This document shows positions 8,276-14,631 of a DNA stretch of 64,000 nucleotides, one piece after another; the first letter of the stretch is position 1; each line of letters opens with the position of its first letter. Source of the DNA: Hyphomicrobiales bacterium (GTDB lineage: Bacteria; Pseudomonadota; Alphaproteobacteria; Rhizobiales; Beijerinckiaceae); NCBI GenBank assembly GCA_900470095.1, contig UBZM01000047.1:19752-83751 (forward strand), written 5' to 3'. The position numbers and the translations under genes were made by a program. The notes below the pieces were generated by a model. The model was not told the DNA's origin. It searched no databases and was given only the letters and a program-made list of their open reading frames with translations.

Positions 8276-9043
8276 CTATTCGCCCGGCAGGAACGCGACG
8301 CGCCCCTCGCCGTCCCGCACCGTCTCGATCCCGACGCCGTAGAGCTCCATCAGACGTGCCGGAGTCAGCAAATCCTTCGCGATCCCGCTCGCCAGCATCC
8401 GGCCCTCGCGAATCATCATGACGCGGTCTGCATGCCGCAGCGCCTGATTGGGATCGTGCGTGGTGAAGAGCACGCCCAATCCTTCGGCCGCGAGGCGCCC
8501 GATCTGCGCCATCACCTTGCCCTGGTTGCCGAAATCGAGGCTTGCGGTCGGCTCGTCGAGAATGACGTAGCGTGGTTCCTGCGCCAGCGCCCGCGCGATC
8601 AGCACGAGCTGGCGCTCGCCACCCGAGATCTGCGTGTAGGGGCGCTCGGCCAACTCTAAGATGCCAAGACGCTCCAGCATGACCATCGCCACCTCGCGAT
8701 CATGCCGCGAGGGCGCGGCGAACAGCGCGCCATGAGCGGTGCGCCCCATCAGAACAACGGTGAAGACCGAGAAGGCGAAGGTTCCGGCATGTGCCTGCGG
8801 CACGTAGCCCAGCGCCCGCGCCCGCTCCGAGACTGTCAGGCCGGCAAGCGGCTTCTCGTCGAGCGTCAGCCCGCCGGCTTGCGGAGGCAGGAGGCCGAGA
8901 AGGGTTTTCAGCAGGGTCGTCTTGCCGCGGCCATTCGGCCCGAGCAGGGCAAGCACCTCACCCGCCCGCAGGGCCAGCGTGATCGCCCGGCCGATCTGGC
9001 GCTCAGGATAGCCATAGGCGAGATCGACGGCACTCAGGCTCAC
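8276..9043 (-). CDS. ABC importer ATPase, MolC/FecE/BtuD type
   Basis: This 255-residue ATP-binding subunit of a class II (BtuCD-like) importer has Walker A GPNGRGKTT (Arg replaces the usual Ala or Ser), Q-loop VPQAHAG, signature ISGGERQL, Walker B YVILDEPTASLD and switch His in TTHD. Its start overlaps the permease stop by 4 bp (9040-9043). It is the last gene of a minus-strand operon that also carries a ModA-like protein. This favours molybdate or tungstate (MolABC-like) over siderophore or cobalamin as substrate, but the subunit itself does not decide that. Confidence 0.88.
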   Translation of the reverse strand: MSLSAVDLAYGYPERQIGRAITLALRAGEVLALLGPNGRGKTTLLKTLLGLLPPQAGGLTLDEKPLAGLTVSERARALGYVPQAHAGTFAFSVFTVVLMGRTAHGALFAAPSRHDREVAMVMLERLGILELAERPYTQISGGERQLVLIARALAQEPRYVILDEPTASLDFGNQGKVMAQIGRLAAEGLGVLFTTHDPNQALRHADRVMMIREGRMLASGIAKDLLTPARLMELYGVGIETVRDGEGRVAFLPGE

Positions 9044-10053
9044 GACCAGCCTCCGCGGGCGGACGCGAGCAGCCAGATGAAGAAGGGCGTGCCGATCACC
9101 GCGGTGAGGATGCCGAGCGGCGTCTCGACCGGGCCGATCGTTCGCGCCAGCGTGTCGATGATCAGCAGGTAGCCGCCGCCGAGGATCGCGGAGGTCGGCA
9201 CGAGCTTGCCGAAATCGGGCCCGACAAGGAACCGCGCGAGATGCGGCACGACGAGGCCGACCCAGCCGATGATCCCGGCCGCCGCAACGCTCGCTGACGT
9301 AACCAGTGTCGCTGCCGCGACGATGGTCAGGCGCAAGGGGCCAGTGTTCAGTCCGAGCGCCCGCGCCTCCTCCTCCGGCAGCGACATGACATTCATGCGC
9401 CAGCGCAGGGCGATCAGAACCACGGAGCCGAGGGCGACCGGGCCGAGCAGCGGCAGGAGATCGGGCTTTGCGGCCCCGGCAAGGCTGCCCAGCAGCCAGA
9501 AGGTCATGGCTGGGAGCTGGTTATAGGGATCGGCCCAGTATTTCACGAGGCCGATCCCGGCGCCAAGCAGCGAGCCGATGACGACGCCGGTCAGGACGAG
9601 CGCCAGCACCGGGTCGCCGCGCCGGATGGTCGAGCCTACGACACAGACGGCGCCGACCGCGATCAACCCACCGATGAAGGCTCCGAGCTGGATGCCGACG
9701 ATGCCGAGCGAGAAATAGATGCCGACAACCGCGCCGAGCGCCGCGCCAGACGAAGCGCCGAGGATATCGGGTGAGACCAGCGGGTTGCGGAATAGCCCCT
9801 GAAACGCTGTGCCGGCGACCGCGAGCGCTGCCCCGCAGAGCATGGCCGCAATCACGCGCGGGCCGCGGATATTCCAGATCACCGTTTCCAGTTGCGGCGG
9901 CAGGCCCGACGGCTGACCGCTCACCCCCGCCCAGAGGATGCGCAGAAGATCACCGGGTCCGACCGGGAAGCGCCCAAGTGCGAAGGCAAGCACGACGCCG
10001 AGCGCGAGCAGGCCTACGGCGAACAGGTTTCCGCGCGCGGAGGATGGCGACAA
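9040..10053 (-). CDS. FecCD/BtuC-family ABC permease, MolB-like
   Basis: This 337-residue polytopic permease has the FecCD signatures: RGPRVIAAMLCGAALAVAG, FQGLFRNPLVSPDILGASSG and the late WVGLVVPHLARFLVG coupling segment. About ten hydrophobic helices are visible. The start is TTG at 10053, four bases past the TAA of the binding-protein gene; no better in-frame start is nearby. It forms the membrane channel for the adjacent ATPase and binding protein. Confidence 0.88.
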   Translation of the reverse strand: MSPSSARGNLFAVGLLALGVVLAFALGRFPVGPGDLLRILWAGVSGQPSGLPPQLETVIWNIRGPRVIAAMLCGAALAVAGTAFQGLFRNPLVSPDILGASSGAALGAVVGIYFSLGIVGIQLGAFIGGLIAVGAVCVVGSTIRRGDPVLALVLTGVVIGSLLGAGIGLVKYWADPYNQLPAMTFWLLGSLAGAAKPDLLPLLGPVALGSVVLIALRWRMNVMSLPEEEARALGLNTGPLRLTIVAAATLVTSASVAAAGIIGWVGLVVPHLARFLVGPDFGKLVPTSAILGGGYLLIIDTLARTIGPVETPLGILTAVIGTPFFIWLLASARGGWS

Positions 10054-10057
10054 GGGG

Positions 10058-11092
10058 TTAGCCTCGCCCGGTCAGGATACGGTCGAGTTGCGCGTCGGTC
10101 GGCCTCACCTGATAGAACAGCGTGTGGAATTCCCGTGCGAGCGGTCGGATATCCTCCGGGAACTGCGCGGGATAGAGCAGCTTCGCCAGCCACCACAGCC
10201 CGATCATCCGGTTGACCGAAGGCGGGAAATCGACCCAGCCAAAGGGCAGCTTCGGGGAGAGATGCACGCGGTGATCGCGCACCGCCCGGACATTCGCCCA
10301 GGCAGGATCGCTGGAGACGCCATCGGCGAAGACGGGATCGATGGTGACGATCACCTCTGGATTCCAGGACAGGATCTGTTCGAGCGAGACATTCGCAAGA
10401 CCGCTGCCCGGCGTCTCGGCCGCGACATTGCGCGCCCCGAGGAAGGACAGTGTCTCGACATTGATCGAGCCGCCGAGCCCCGTCTCCAGCCCGCGCGGTC
10501 CGCGCGCGTAATACACCGAGGGACGCTTCTCCCAGGGAATCGTCGCGATACGCCCCTTGATCATCGCCATTGCGGTCTCGCACCAGCGCGCCAGCGTCTC
10601 GGCCCGTTCGCCGCGTCCGGTCAGCTGGCCGAGGATGCGATAGCTTGCCGGAATCTGCTCGAAGCGACCGTCGAGCAGCGCATAGGGGATGCCGGTCTGC
10701 TCCTGGACCCGCATCGCCAGCTCGACATAGGTCCTGCCCGTCGAACCGGCATCGACAATCAGGTCCGGCTTGAGGCCGAGCACCGCTTCGAGATTGGCGC
10801 TGTTGCCGCGCCCTGTGATCCGACCGACTTCCGGCCTGTCGCCAATTCCAGGCAGCAGGAATTCGCGCTCCTCCGCGCGATTGGCGCGCGGCCAGCCGAG
10901 CAGCAGGTCGGGCGCAAGCGTATAGAGCGTGATGGCGGCCGGTGGCCCCGCCGGAAAGACGCGTTCGACCCGGGCCGGAATGGCGATCTCGCGCCCGGCG
11001 CCGTCGTGCACGGTTGCGGCACGCGCAATGCGCGGCGCGGCCAGCGCCGCGGCAAGGCCGCCCAGAACGGCACGACGGTCAGGTCCGCGCAT
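10058..11092 (-). CDS. Periplasmic metal/oxyanion-binding protein (class III, MolA/BtuF-like)
   Basis: This 344-residue protein has a cleavable N-terminal export signal; RRAVLGGLAAALAAPRIARA contains a twin Arg and an ARA cleavage site. The mature part is a TroA/BtuF-type two-lobe fold joined by a long helix, with ANLEAVLGLKPDLIVDAG and LSWNPEVIVTIDP marking the two lobes. It delivers ligand to the FecCD-type permease downstream. Its ATG lies 14 bp inside the preceding TrmO-like gene, so translation is coupled. Relatives bind ferric siderophores, cobalamin, or molybdate/tungstate (MolA); operon context favours the last. Confidence 0.82.
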   Translation of the reverse strand: MRGPDRRAVLGGLAAALAAPRIARAATVHDGAGREIAIPARVERVFPAGPPAAITLYTLAPDLLLGWPRANRAEEREFLLPGIGDRPEVGRITGRGNSANLEAVLGLKPDLIVDAGSTGRTYVELAMRVQEQTGIPYALLDGRFEQIPASYRILGQLTGRGERAETLARWCETAMAMIKGRIATIPWEKRPSVYYARGPRGLETGLGGSINVETLSFLGARNVAAETPGSGLANVSLEQILSWNPEVIVTIDPVFADGVSSDPAWANVRAVRDHRVHLSPKLPFGWVDFPPSVNRMIGLWWLAKLLYPAQFPEDIRPLAREFHTLFYQVRPTDAQLDRILTGRG

Positions 11093-11579
11093 GATGATGC
11101 TCCGTGCCGGCGCCCGATTGCGGGCAACGGTTCGGTTTTATGTCGAGAAGCGGCGTACCATCGACACAGTCGAGCCCGCGCACCCGCAGCGCGCCCTCCT
11201 CGACTCCGATGAGCCTGACCCGCGACAGGGCGATCGGGTTGGGGCGGACCGGCGAGCGCAACGCAAAAGTGCCGAGGAGCCGGCCGCTGGATTTCGGGCT
11301 CTGGGTCAGCAGATCCCTTCGGGCCAGGTTCATCCAGTACAGCAGGTCGAGATACGCGCAGGCTTCGACCCCGGCCAGCGCCGGCCACCAGGTCGCATCG
11401 ATTTCGACATGGCAGATCGGCCCCGATTCCGGGTCTCCACGCCGCGGGCATTGATCGCGTGAGGCGAAGGGCGTGCGCAGCCGGCCGATGAAGACGAGAT
11501 GCGCGTCCTGCCGATCGGGCAAGGCAGCGATGGTCTCGCCCGGTCGCGTCGCCTGCCAATCCATTGCTTGCTCCGTCAC
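11079..11579 (-). CDS. TrmO/TsaA-like tRNA (N6-threonylcarbamoyladenosine-37) methyltransferase family protein
   Basis: This 166-residue protein has the beta-barrel TsaA/TrmO domain. The signature TFALRSPVRPNPIALSRV matches the family motif FATRSPxRPNPIG with a conservative change, and DGTPLLDIKP follows. TrmO uses SAM to methylate t6A37 in tRNAThr(GGU). Copies embedded in metal-transport operons are known, and their real role is uncertain. It overlaps the ModA-like gene by 4 bp and the binding-protein gene by 14 bp, so it belongs to this transporter operon. A Cys-rich stretch (DQCPRRGDP, PICHVEI) could bind metal, which is speculative. Confidence 0.82.
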   Translation of the reverse strand: MTEQAMDWQATRPGETIAALPDRQDAHLVFIGRLRTPFASRDQCPRRGDPESGPICHVEIDATWWPALAGVEACAYLDLLYWMNLARRDLLTQSPKSSGRLLGTFALRSPVRPNPIALSRVRLIGVEEGALRVRGLDCVDGTPLLDIKPNRCPQSGAGTEHHHART

Positions 11580-12364
11580 TTCGACCCGCTATTCGGAAGA
11601 ACCGGCGCGGCAAAACCGTGTTTCGCCAGAATCTCCTGCCCCGCCTGCGACAGGATGAACATGGCAAGCCGATAGCCGTTTGGCGAGGCCGCGCTCATCA
11701 CGGTCAGCCCATAATCGGCCCCGACCGCGAGGGCGAGCGGCAACCGGACCAGCGTCACTCCGGGCTGCTCCCGGGCGAGCGGTTGGGCATTGGTGCAATA
11801 GGCCAGGAAGATATCGGCCTCGCCACGGGCGAGCTTGTGGCCATAGGCGTTGACGCCGTCAGGGGCGGCGACGCTGCTGGGACCGCCCGTCAGCTGCAGC
11901 GCCTTGGCTTCGAGCGCCGCCCTTGCACCGGGCTTCAAGGCTTCGGCCCGGGCGAAAACCTCAAAGGCGTAATCGCCGGAGGGATCTGCCTTCGGCGTCG
12001 AGGTGCCGAGCCTGATGGATGGATCGAGCATCCGCTCCAGCACTGTCTCGGCAGTGACCATCAGGCCCGGCCGAACGAAGGCGCAGAGTTCGTTGCGCGC
12101 GAAGAGCACGACCGGCCCGGCCAGGCCCGCTTCCGCCAGTGCAGCCGGGTGGTCCATGTTGGCGGAAGCGAACACCTCCGCCGCTTGGCCCTTGGCCAAC
12201 CGCTCGCGCAGCAATCCCGAAGGGGCATAGGCAGGTTCGACCTGAACCCCGGTCAGGGTTTCGAAAGCCTGGGCCACCTCGGTCAAGGCCGCGCGCAGGC
12301 TCCCGGCGGCATGGAGCAGGACCGGCTGCCGCCGTGGAGCCGCCGGGAAAGTGTCCTGCGCCAT
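11576..12364 (-). CDS. ModA-like molybdate-binding protein without signal peptide
   Basis: This 262-residue type II binding protein resembles ModA: LLHAAGSLRAALTEVAQAFE, then the ligand-loop region EVFASANMDHPAAL and the YGLTVMSAAS / LAMFILSQAGQEIL C-terminal part. The N terminus (MAQDTFPAAPRRQ) has no hydrophobic leader, and extending the frame upstream adds none. The product therefore looks cytoplasmic, unlike classical ModA. It may serve as a cytoplasmic molybdate/tungstate carrier or sensor coupled to the importer. The ATG overlaps the stop of a possible small ORF (TGATG at 12362-12366). Confidence 0.75.
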   Translation of the reverse strand: MAQDTFPAAPRRQPVLLHAAGSLRAALTEVAQAFETLTGVQVEPAYAPSGLLRERLAKGQAAEVFASANMDHPAALAEAGLAGPVVLFARNELCAFVRPGLMVTAETVLERMLDPSIRLGTSTPKADPSGDYAFEVFARAEALKPGARAALEAKALQLTGGPSSVAAPDGVNAYGHKLARGEADIFLAYCTNAQPLAREQPGVTLVRLPLALAVGADYGLTVMSAASPNGYRLAMFILSQAGQEILAKHGFAAPVLPNSGSK

Positions 12365-12501
12365 CAGCAGCTCGACGACGATGGGAGGGCGGATTGGCTC
12401 ATGCGCCGGCCTGCGTCGTAATGGCGAAGAAAGGCCATGAGCGCGGCGCCCTGCAATTCGGTGGTCGCGGTCTGCCCTTCGGCGCTGATCAGCTCTTTCA
12501 C
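12364..12501 (-). CDS. Possible 45-residue small ORF between methyltransferase-like and ModA-like genes
   Basis: A GTG at 12501 opens a 45-codon frame ending in a TGA that shares its A with the ModA-like ATG. The predicted peptide begins VKELISAEGQTATTELQG and contains GAALMAFLRHYDAGRR, which has a plausible helical, protein-like composition up to about residue 32. The Ser-rich tail looks less natural. The Shine-Dalgarno is weak. It fills the only gap in an otherwise overlapping operon. I do not recognise a family, and no function can be assigned. Confidence 0.35.
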   Translation of the reverse strand: MKELISAEGQTATTELQGAALMAFLRHYDAGRRMSQSALPSSSSC

Positions 12502-12507
12502 GGTAGC

Positions 12508-13434
12508 CTATCGATCATTGATCGTCTCACGCAGGTGCTCGGCCGAGGCCCGCCAGGATGACACGGTACTGGATGAGACGGTACCGATCGAGCAGCGACT
12601 TGTCGCCTTCGACGACGATGGCACAGCGCTCGCCCAGCCAATGCCTTCAGTTTCGCGCGCCTGGAAATTTCTCCAGGCGCAGACGCGGTGGACATATTCG
12701 CGGTCCCTTTCAGCTTCGCCAAAGGGCGCGACAAGCCAGTCCCAGCGTTCGTCAGGCGGCGGGAGCGGGACCCCGCGCGCCAGATCCAATTGGTCCCTCA
12801 CCGTGCCATCGCGGTCATGCTCGCGCATCTCGACATCGCTGATCAGGCAGACGCGCCCCGCGAAACGCGCAAGATCCTGGAGGTGCCAGGCGATGCAGCG
12901 CGCCGGCAGATCATCCGGGAGGGCGGCTGCGCGGTCCCCGTTCTCCTCGAGCCAGTCCTCGACCGGCCAGGCGAGCTGCGACATCAGGTTGGCCGAGATC
13001 ACCAGATCGACCTCCGTGTCCGCACTGAAATCGGCCAGCGGGTCGCTACGCCCCTGGCGCTCCCCCGCCAGCCAGCCCATGACGCCAGTCAGATCGCGCG
13101 TCACCAGTTCGGCATTTCGGCGCAATGCCATGCGCAACCGGACCTGGGGCAGGTGCACCGCATCGATCAGCACGACACGCTGAAAACGAGCGCAGAGCAG
13201 ATCGAGCGGCACGTCGCGCACCAATCCCGAGCCAAGCACGACGGCCGTGCGGTGCCGTTCGAGCTCGCCGACGATCTGCGTCACGACCGCCTGGCAGCGC
13301 TGGTGGTGCGGCGCCCAGCTCTCGCGCTGGCGCAACCCCCGCGCCCAGAGCGCCGTGCTCTCCCGCAACAGGCCGAGCTGCCGCGTCATCCGTCCGACCG
13401 GGGTCGCAAGGGTCAGCAGGAACTCAGCCAGCAT
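12508..13434 (-). CDS. SAM-methyltransferase-like protein, probable frameshift near the C terminus
   Basis: The product starts MLAEFLLTLATPVGRM; ATG 13434 is preceded by ACAAGG. It contains a Rossmann-like block TAVVLGSGLVRDVPL...VVLIDAVHL typical of class I SAM methyltransferases, then LVISANLMSQLAWP. The final ~40 residues in this frame are Ser/Thr-rich and unlike the rest. From about 12640 the adjacent frame instead reads natural-looking protein (LGERCAIVVEGDKS, then RYRLIQYRVILAGLGRAPA) and stops at 12527. A lost base, or loss of one CTGG unit in GGCTGG(CTGG)G near 12631-12641, would explain this. The gene heads the Mo-like transporter operon. Substrate unknown. Confidence 0.6.
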   Translation of the reverse strand: MLAEFLLTLATPVGRMTRQLGLLRESTALWARGLRQRESWAPHHQRCQAVVTQIVGELERHRTAVVLGSGLVRDVPLDLLCARFQRVVLIDAVHLPQVRLRMALRRNAELVTRDLTGVMGWLAGERQGRSDPLADFSADTEVDLVISANLMSQLAWPVEDWLEENGDRAAALPDDLPARCIAWHLQDLARFAGRVCLISDVEMREHDRDGTVRDQLDLARGVPLPPPDERWDWLVAPFGEAERDREYVHRVCAWRNFQARETEGIGWASAVPSSSKATSRCSIGTVSSSTVSSWRASAEHLRETINDR

Positions 13435-13497
13435 CGGACCTTGTGTCCGAAAAGATGAAGCGGCTTCCGGACGCAATCATGCGCGGCCTCGGTGTCT

Positions 13498-14631
13498 TCA
13501 GGTCAGTGCGCCGCGCCCCGCAACCGGCCAGAGCGTCTCGACATGCGCATCCGGACCGTGCAGCCCGCGCACGCCGACATACCAGTCATGCAGGTTCACC
13601 GTCGGGTCGCAATGGCCGGGAACGAGCAGGATGCGGTCGCCGCGATGCGGCAGGGCGATCGGATCGCCCGTGAGGACGCCATGCTCGTCGGAGGGTTTGG
13701 TATAAATCACGCCGTCGCGCTGGAACGGCATCGGCATGCCGGAATCGACCGCCGCCGCCTTGTGCCCGGCATCGACGATGGCGCGATCCGGCACGGGCTT
13801 GCTCATCACCCCGGCGAGGACGAAGAGTGCGTGTTCGAACGACCTGAAGGGGGTGCCGTCCGCCTGTCGATTGCGGGCGTAATCGGCATCCATGAAGATG
13901 TAGGAGCCGGCCTGGATCTCGTTCCAGATGCCGGACTGGCTTTCGAGCTCATAGGTACCTGTGCCGGCGCCGCTGACATATTCGCAGTTGAGGCCCGCCT
14001 GGGCGAGACGCTCCACCGCATTGCGGGCGAGCAGCCCGGCACGCTCGATCGCCTCGCGCCGCTCGTCGATCGAGCGCATATGCTGGGCAGAGCCATGATA
14101 GGCCTGAACGCCCGTGAAGCGCAGCGAGTTGCTCCGCGCGACCGCCTCGGCGATCCGGACCGCTTCGCCGACGGCCACGCCGCAGCGGCGCCCGCCAATA
14201 TCGAGCTCGACCATGACATCGAGCATCACGTCGTGCCGCGCCGCCGCCTCCGCTGCCTCGCGCACGCCCTCGGGATGGTCGACGCAAAGGCCGATCCGTG
14301 CGTTGCGCGCCAGCTTGGCGAGCCGGTCGAGCTTGGCCGGACCGACGATCTCGTTGGTGACCAGAACATCGCCGACACCGCCCGCAACGAGAATCTCGGC
14401 TTCGGAGACCTTCTGGCAGCACTGGCCGACGGCGCCATGCGCGATCTGTAGCAGGGCGATATCCGGGCTCTTATGGGTCTTGGCATGAGGACGAAGACGT
14501 ACGCCATGGGCCTGCGTATAGGCGGCCATGGCGACGAGATTCCGCTCGAAGGCGTCGAGATCGAGAACGAGCGCTGGCGTGTCGATCTCGGCGAAGCTCT
14601 GGCCGATCTGGGCCGGCGGGGGCGCGGGCAT
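13498..14631 (-). CDS. DSD1-family PLP enzyme (D-threonine aldolase / D-serine dehydratase-like)
   Basis: This 377-residue protein has an alanine-racemase-like N-terminal barrel with the PLP lysine motif RPHAKTHKS (Lys within about residues 50-53) and a C-terminal beta domain containing the metal-binding His and Cys in PGHCDPTVN. This is the fold of D-threonine aldolase, 3-hydroxy-D-aspartate aldolase and eukaryotic-type D-serine dehydratase. It cleaves or dehydrates D-3-hydroxy amino acids in the cytoplasm. The exact substrate cannot be decided. It is divergent from the ABC exporter gene, with 143 bp between them. Confidence 0.85.
   Translation of the reverse strand: MPAPPPAQIGQSFAEIDTPALVLDLDAFERNLVAMAAYTQAHGVRLRPHAKTHKSPDIALLQIAHGAVGQCCQKVSEAEILVAGGVGDVLVTNEIVGPAKLDRLAKLARNARIGLCVDHPEGVREAAEAAARHDVMLDVMVELDIGGRRCGVAVGEAVRIAEAVARSNSLRFTGVQAYHGSAQHMRSIDERREAIERAGLLARNAVERLAQAGLNCEYVSGAGTGTYELESQSGIWNEIQAGSYIFMDADYARNRQADGTPFRSFEHALFVLAGVMSKPVPDRAIVDAGHKAAAVDSGMPMPFQRDGVIYTKPSDEHGVLTGDPIALPHRGDRILLVPGHCDPTVNLHDWYVGVRGLHGPDAHVETLWPVAGRGALT

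Follow-up and report, generated by a model that had tools for sequence, protein, structure and literature searches.

A probable molybdate or tungstate importer with a TrmO-like accessory gene in a partly eroded operon of a Hyphomicrobiales bacterium

Gene content of the locus

The window, i.e., the whole stretch of 64,000 nucleotides of contig UBZM01000047.1 from a Hyphomicrobiales bacterium which was analysed here, carries a string of five genes on the minus strand. In order they code for a ModA-like binding protein (11576..12364), a short-form TrmO_N (UPF0066) protein, a SAM-binding β-barrel (11079..11579; PF01980, 86.6 bits, cut-off 26.8), a MolA-like class III binding protein (10058..11092; PF01497), a MolB-like FecCD permease (9040..10053; PF01032, E 9e-83) and a MolC-like ABC ATPase (8276..9043; PF00005, E 3.7e-30). 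The ModA and TrmO genes overlap by 4 bp, those of TrmO and the binding protein by 14 bp, those of permease and ATPase by 4 bp; binding protein and permease are separated by 4 bp. To this extent the chain proposed in an earlier note on this DNA is real. The methyltransferase-like ORF (13434 or 13476 to 12508), which the note had included, does not belong to the chain as it lies 143 bp away from modA.

Upstream of these genes, on the same strand, lie a frame-broken relic (12365..12634), discussed below, an out-of-frame tail of the methyltransferase-like ORF which enters this relic (12508..12657), the conserved part of the methyltransferase-like gene (12658..13434) and, as context, a BhcC-like gene (13498..14631), identified by NF045642 (E 1.4e-141, below the curated cut-off) and by its adjacency in relatives. 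The sole Rfam or ARAGORN match in the window is a tRNA-Gly (gcc) at 1187-1261. A Mo-co riboswitch, for which the earlier note had advised a search in relatives, is absent from the window at Rfam gathering scores, and a palindrome which we take to be ModE-like had no match in the window.

A fuller cluster in relatives and the relic of tupA

Four relatives from the same genus carry genes for a regulator, tupB, an ATPase, tupA, modA and trmO; three of the four also possess molABC. The order in loci L033, L034 and L036 is an opposite-strand regulator (HTH_17 plus PBP_like), a TupB-like permease, an ATPase, a TupA-like protein, ModA, TrmO, MolA, MolB and MolC. L035 has the same order minus MolABC, and a MolA search of its genome at E up to 1e-40 was negative. 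The upstream genes of these relatives resemble the TupABC tungstate importer (TupA, NF041772, E 7.4e-74; TupB, NF041773, E 1e-45), yet both score below the curated model cut-offs. A tandem ModA-like duplicate is located between TupA and TrmO in L034 (6004-7567) and L036 (6362-7889).

Of the TupABC set the window retains a tupA relic only. Positions 12634-12365 align along their length with the 3' end of tupA and the modA leader of L033: 185 of 244 aligned bases are identical (75.8%) with 16 gaps, and the score of 172 compares with a maximum of 87 in 200 shuffles in blocks of two bases. Alignments with L034, L035 and L036 scored 114, 141 and 113, each higher than all of its own shuffles. The intact tupA ends of L033 and the other three loci are 82-83% identical and gap-free. 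A search of this genome for tupA found none; the same search, as a positive control, located tupA in all five other genomes of the genus to which it was applied and in the source of the query. Neither tupB nor the tup ATPase was found within the window, and no regulator was found in 12300-13500.

The methyltransferase-like protein is 63% identical to its L033 orthologue across 257 aa, and this homology ends at 12664. Hence the junction must be positioned somewhere from 12664 to 12634. The ORF tail, i.e., the last ~50 residues running into the tupA relic, does not stem from the methyltransferase-like gene itself. We infer a single deletion, seen in one draft assembly, which would have placed the 3' end of the adjacent methyltransferase-like gene directly before the last quarter of tupA. 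Subsequently the tupA remnant would have decayed, and modA would have lost its leader start codon. Most likely, the locus is a partly eroded copy of a Mo/W uptake cluster. The window shows that an operon may resemble a new gene combination while being a deletion scar.

The earlier note considered the methyltransferase-like gene part of the transport operon; it is a bystander. It adjoins the BhcC-like gene in all four other loci from the genus, and within flanks of at most ~1.5 kb no Mo gene was present at 25 methyltransferase-like loci except in the window and at L033, i.e., none was seen in other genera. Its membership in the operon is rejected on these grounds. No BhcC was found beside the gene in the 20 other loci returned from the family (flank up to ~1.5 kb). 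The name is equally without profile support: neither Pfam nor NCBIfam nor, using a 12-row profile, the Protein Data Bank sequences gave a match, and Rossmann-like motifs are discernible by eye only. A structure prediction without alignment had a mean pLDDT of 43 and was left unused. This family, nameless by Pfam, NCBIfam and PDB sequences, is present in 22 of 149 genomes of the bacterial family.

The ModA-like gene

The ModA-like protein scores above the cut-offs of two molybdate-binding protein profiles, NF002917 (327.8 bits, cut-off 264) and TIGR01256 (66.6 bits, cut-off 62.5), in a scan from 12415 onwards, which adds 17 codons ahead of the first start. It differs from a regular ModA in that no ModB or ModC gene adjoins and no signal peptide is readable. 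In the alignment, the codon opposite the L033 start has ceased to be a start codon; the first start in frame, at 12364, falls inside the former leader, and there is no upstream start codon that would supply a signal peptide. The stop codon of a short upstream frame overlaps the modA ATG, which would allow coupled translation.

Is this modA already dead and is the entire locus being lost? The missing start codon and leader as well as the relic state of tupA would agree with such a course of events. Yet the ORF is open for 262 codons, the mature domain is intact with 69-75% identity to relatives compared to 67-84% among the relatives themselves, and dN/dS (NG86) is 0.20 against L033 and 0.23 against L036. 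Further, the TrmO and MolABC genes are intact in the window and under purifying selection, with dN/dS values (NG86) against L033 and L036 of 0.16 and 0.26 for TrmO, 0.14 and 0.20 for MolA, 0.17 and 0.20 for MolB, and 0.22 and 0.19 for MolC. A dying locus is therefore rather unlikely in our opinion. The normal rate of change of ModA fits a protein which is still useful and tells against lost function: either the loss of the leader is recent or the leaderless protein continues to serve a purpose.

The TrmO-like protein

The window TrmO_N protein matches the sequence of 3okx (RPA0152) with E 1.5e-40. With the class VIII SAM methyltransferases TrmO/YaeB (E. coli TrmO, RPA0152, AF0241) it shares the TrmO_N barrel and three of four SAM-contact residues. 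It differs in being short, in its linkage to Mo/W uptake genes and in its score of 85.4 with the TrmO equivalog model TIGR00104, under the cut-off of 93.25. DPRxxY is a motif of γ- and β-proteobacterial and mammalian TrmO proteins; archaeal and other forms are devoid of it. The motif is absent from the window protein. In E. coli TrmO, mutation of DPRxxY abolishes activity, as reported in the pertinent section of PMC4132733. Taking the SAM contacts of AF0241 from the same paper, Arg82, Asp111 and Lys122 are kept in the alignment and Gln22 is replaced by Arg47. At the Gln22-equivalent site 137 of 199 TrmO rows have Gln and 15 have Arg. Conserved cysteines were considered as a metal-site signature of Mo-linked TrmO copies and rejected, since many Mo-linked copies have another residue in place of the first of the three, and possession of all three is not associated with Mo linkage (Fisher p 0.39).

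What is the company of TrmO elsewhere? From 96 distinct TrmO places 81 loci were sampled and the neighbours within 6 kb clustered. ABC ATPases (19 loci), SDR-type proteins (16), MolB (10) and MolA (9) came out on top, followed by methyltransferase-like proteins (8), Mop (7), ModA (6) and ModB (6); the non-Mo clusters were named by eye. Nine loci were dropped because no single open frame in them matched at least 100 positions of the model. With fixed profiles, built from families first noticed beside TrmO, a Mo/W-uptake gene was located within 6 kb of 21 of the remaining 72 TrmO copies, against one of 40 arbitrary 12.5-kb control regions from 20 of the sampled genomes, the lone positive being a Mop domain (Fisher p 3.7e-4, a raw value which ignores kinship and for which the families were picked after neighbour clustering). 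Thus the tRNA-modification-type domain in a metal operon, for which the earlier note saw no clear explanation, is a recurrent partner of Mo/W-uptake genes, yet 51 of the 72 copies have no such gene within 6 kb.

The proportion varies with the sample. Among named close relatives it is 58 of 80, a value biased upwards because the search for them started from 15 aligned Mo-linked copies; among hand-picked regions at phylum level (40 regions, 39 rows) it is 4 of 39, and among eight plasmid regions picked from 176 records it is 2. TrmO is found in 67 of the 149 family genomes. Close MolA matches (E up to 1e-90) occur at 17 places, and all 16 genomes concerned also have TrmO (p 9e-7, kinship ignored), compared to 4 of 13 genomes with remoter MolA matches only. 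TrmO lies within 6 kb at 8 of the 17 places and does not at the other 9. A quick tree built from 197 TrmO rows places the window protein in a set of 10 rows, 9 of them Mo-linked (support 93), nested in a set of 112 rows, 74 of them Mo-linked (support 91). The Mo label requires 22 changes on this tree compared to 61.9 in shuffles, and none of 500 shuffles was as low; near copies among the rows favour such clustering, and the labelling missed small Mop genes (corrected count 85 of 199 rows).

The arrangements are varied. Indioceanicola (Rhodospirillales) has TupA-ModA-TrmO-MolABC together with a TOBE gene opposite; Rhizobium has MolABC-TrmO with Mop opposite; Paroceanicella has Mop-TrmO-MolABC, in which Mop is a profile call for a small gene annotated 'transporter'; Bosea and Mesorhizobium have Mop-TrmO divergent from ModABC; Bosea BK604 has TrmO-type II importer-ModA with a remote binding protein (28% identity); Methylobacterium has TrmO-ModA, and the betaproteobacterium Comamonas has tsaA-modA-modB-ATPase. 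This diversity speaks against mere inheritance of one block. The earlier note regarded a ModA-type and a class III binding protein in one operon as a rarity. The Indioceanicola locus demonstrates that the mixture is genuine; judged by these gene orders it is conserved and no accident. Of the gene set proposed in the note, this pairing and TrmO recur in three relatives from the genus and in Indioceanicola.

Could the TrmO-like protein be an ordinary tRNA-Thr m6t6A37 methyltransferase, co-transcribed with metal importers by chance? PF01980 above cut-off, the three preserved SAM contacts and the equally short archaeal TrmO forms would suit such an enzyme, as would the majority of sampled copies which reside away from Mo genes. 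Further, this genome has no TrmO match beyond two. However, the second copy (C88), closest to Bosea records, is situated beside Mop, ModABC and ModE, i.e., both copies adjoin Mo-transport genes. Together with the subthreshold equivalog score, the replaced fourth contact and the missing DPRxxY part needed by the E. coli enzyme (in the cited section of PMC4132733), this renders an ordinary tRNA enzyme unlikely. The kinship of C88 to Bosea suggests a Bosea-like host within Hyphomicrobiales. A record-level literature search returned no TrmO-molybdenum link. A weak lead comes from Pseudomonas simiae: in PMC6365646, tsaA and moaA stand together among the mutants that were set aside because their defects on deoxyribose were inconsistent. 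Growth on deoxyribose needs a Mo enzyme.

The importer and its probable ligand

Binding protein, FecCD permease and ATPase are united in one operon. The best PDB sequence matches of the binding protein are 4pag (E 8.7e-46), 4ovk (2.7e-25) and MolA from Haemophilus influenzae, 3psa (3.7e-20). According to PMC4031551, both molybdate and tungstate are ligands of MolA, and MolBC-A transports molybdate with low affinity. The window importer is like H. influenzae MolABC (HI1472-HI1470/71) in its composition of class III binding protein, FecCD permease and ATPase. It is unlike it in its remote sequence (best stretch of the binding protein, 147-329) and in the TrmO_N and ModA-like genes ahead. The Mo/W-type transport which the earlier note had suggested gains support from the MolA homology and from TupA/TupB, ModA, Mop, ModB, ModC or ModE neighbours in relatives; gene company and homology thus point to molybdate or tungstate as the ligand. 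That the importer carries a ferric siderophore, heme or cobalamin in an incidental Mo-gene neighbourhood is very unlikely: close homologues do bear the label 'iron ABC transporter' in plasmid records, and the best profile matches of ATPase and permease are to heme and B12 systems, below cut-offs. Yet the binding protein matches MolA; neighbours of the TupA, ModA, Mop, ModE, ModB and ModC kinds recur; and the operons inspected showed neither a TonB receptor nor a siderophore gene that could be recognised.

Proposed function

Most likely, the window harbours a type II importer for Mo/W, accompanied by a TrmO-like accessory protein which binds SAM, in an operon which was stripped of its tup part. 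The ancestral operon would have comprised the opposite-strand regulator, tupB, the ATPase, tupA, modA, trmO, molA, molB and molC, i.e., two importers, one of type I and one of type II (BtuCDF-like), served by three binding proteins. Here MolABC would be left as the working importer: MolA would catch molybdate or tungstate in the periplasm, MolB would let the oxyanion pass, and MolC would power this step with ATP. The TrmO_N protein would bind SAM in the cytoplasm as an accessory of this system. Its gene neighbourhoods suggest that it is most likely a methyltransferase which takes part in Mo/W handling and not a tRNA enzyme of the housekeeping kind.

More tentatively, the short alphaproteobacterial TrmO_N clade might as a whole be a SAM-dependent enzyme or sensor dedicated to the uptake of molybdate/tungstate, perhaps of other transition metals; we consider this possible though doubtful. 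A metal-uptake function is not known for the TrmO_N fold. The clade is annotated everywhere as tRNA methyltransferase, a label which may hide a role in metal supply. If the link holds, some 'tRNA (N6-threonylcarbamoyladenosine(37)-N6)-methyltransferase' members work in molybdenum or tungsten supply, and neighbouring importers labelled 'iron ABC transporter' are Mo/W importers.

Other settings of MolABC and TrmO genes

The annotation given to MolABC homologues in public plasmid records (L333-L335, L203) is that of iron ABC transporters. An Azospirillum MolABC locus has no TrmO or Mo gene in its annotation. L184, in a record named Mycobacterium sp. KBS0706, is a TrmO-MolAB locus of alphaproteobacterial type; the name or the assembly may be wrong.

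TrmO copies without Mo genes often adjoin an Nramp (MntH-like) transporter, i.e., at 10 loci (L163, L172, L175, L177, L179, L182, L189, L194, L195, L196), with PF01566 checked on L195 alone. On Phaeobacter/Tritonibacter plasmids TrmO leads an operon whose other genes code for a large binding protein of the ABC type, two permeases and an ATPase (L200, 5944-11397; L206, 5962-11536; L209), by eye a peptide or nickel system; in L209 two tandem TrmO genes precede the similar-looking ABC set. In a separate TrmO group (L228-L232, L242, L244, L245) the divergent neighbours are an ArsR-type regulator and a MetF-like gene, both named by eye. Finally, in a Klebsiella IncC plasmid (L201) the segment from qnrA6/ISVsa5 to ISCR1 includes genes for a binding protein and for TrmO.
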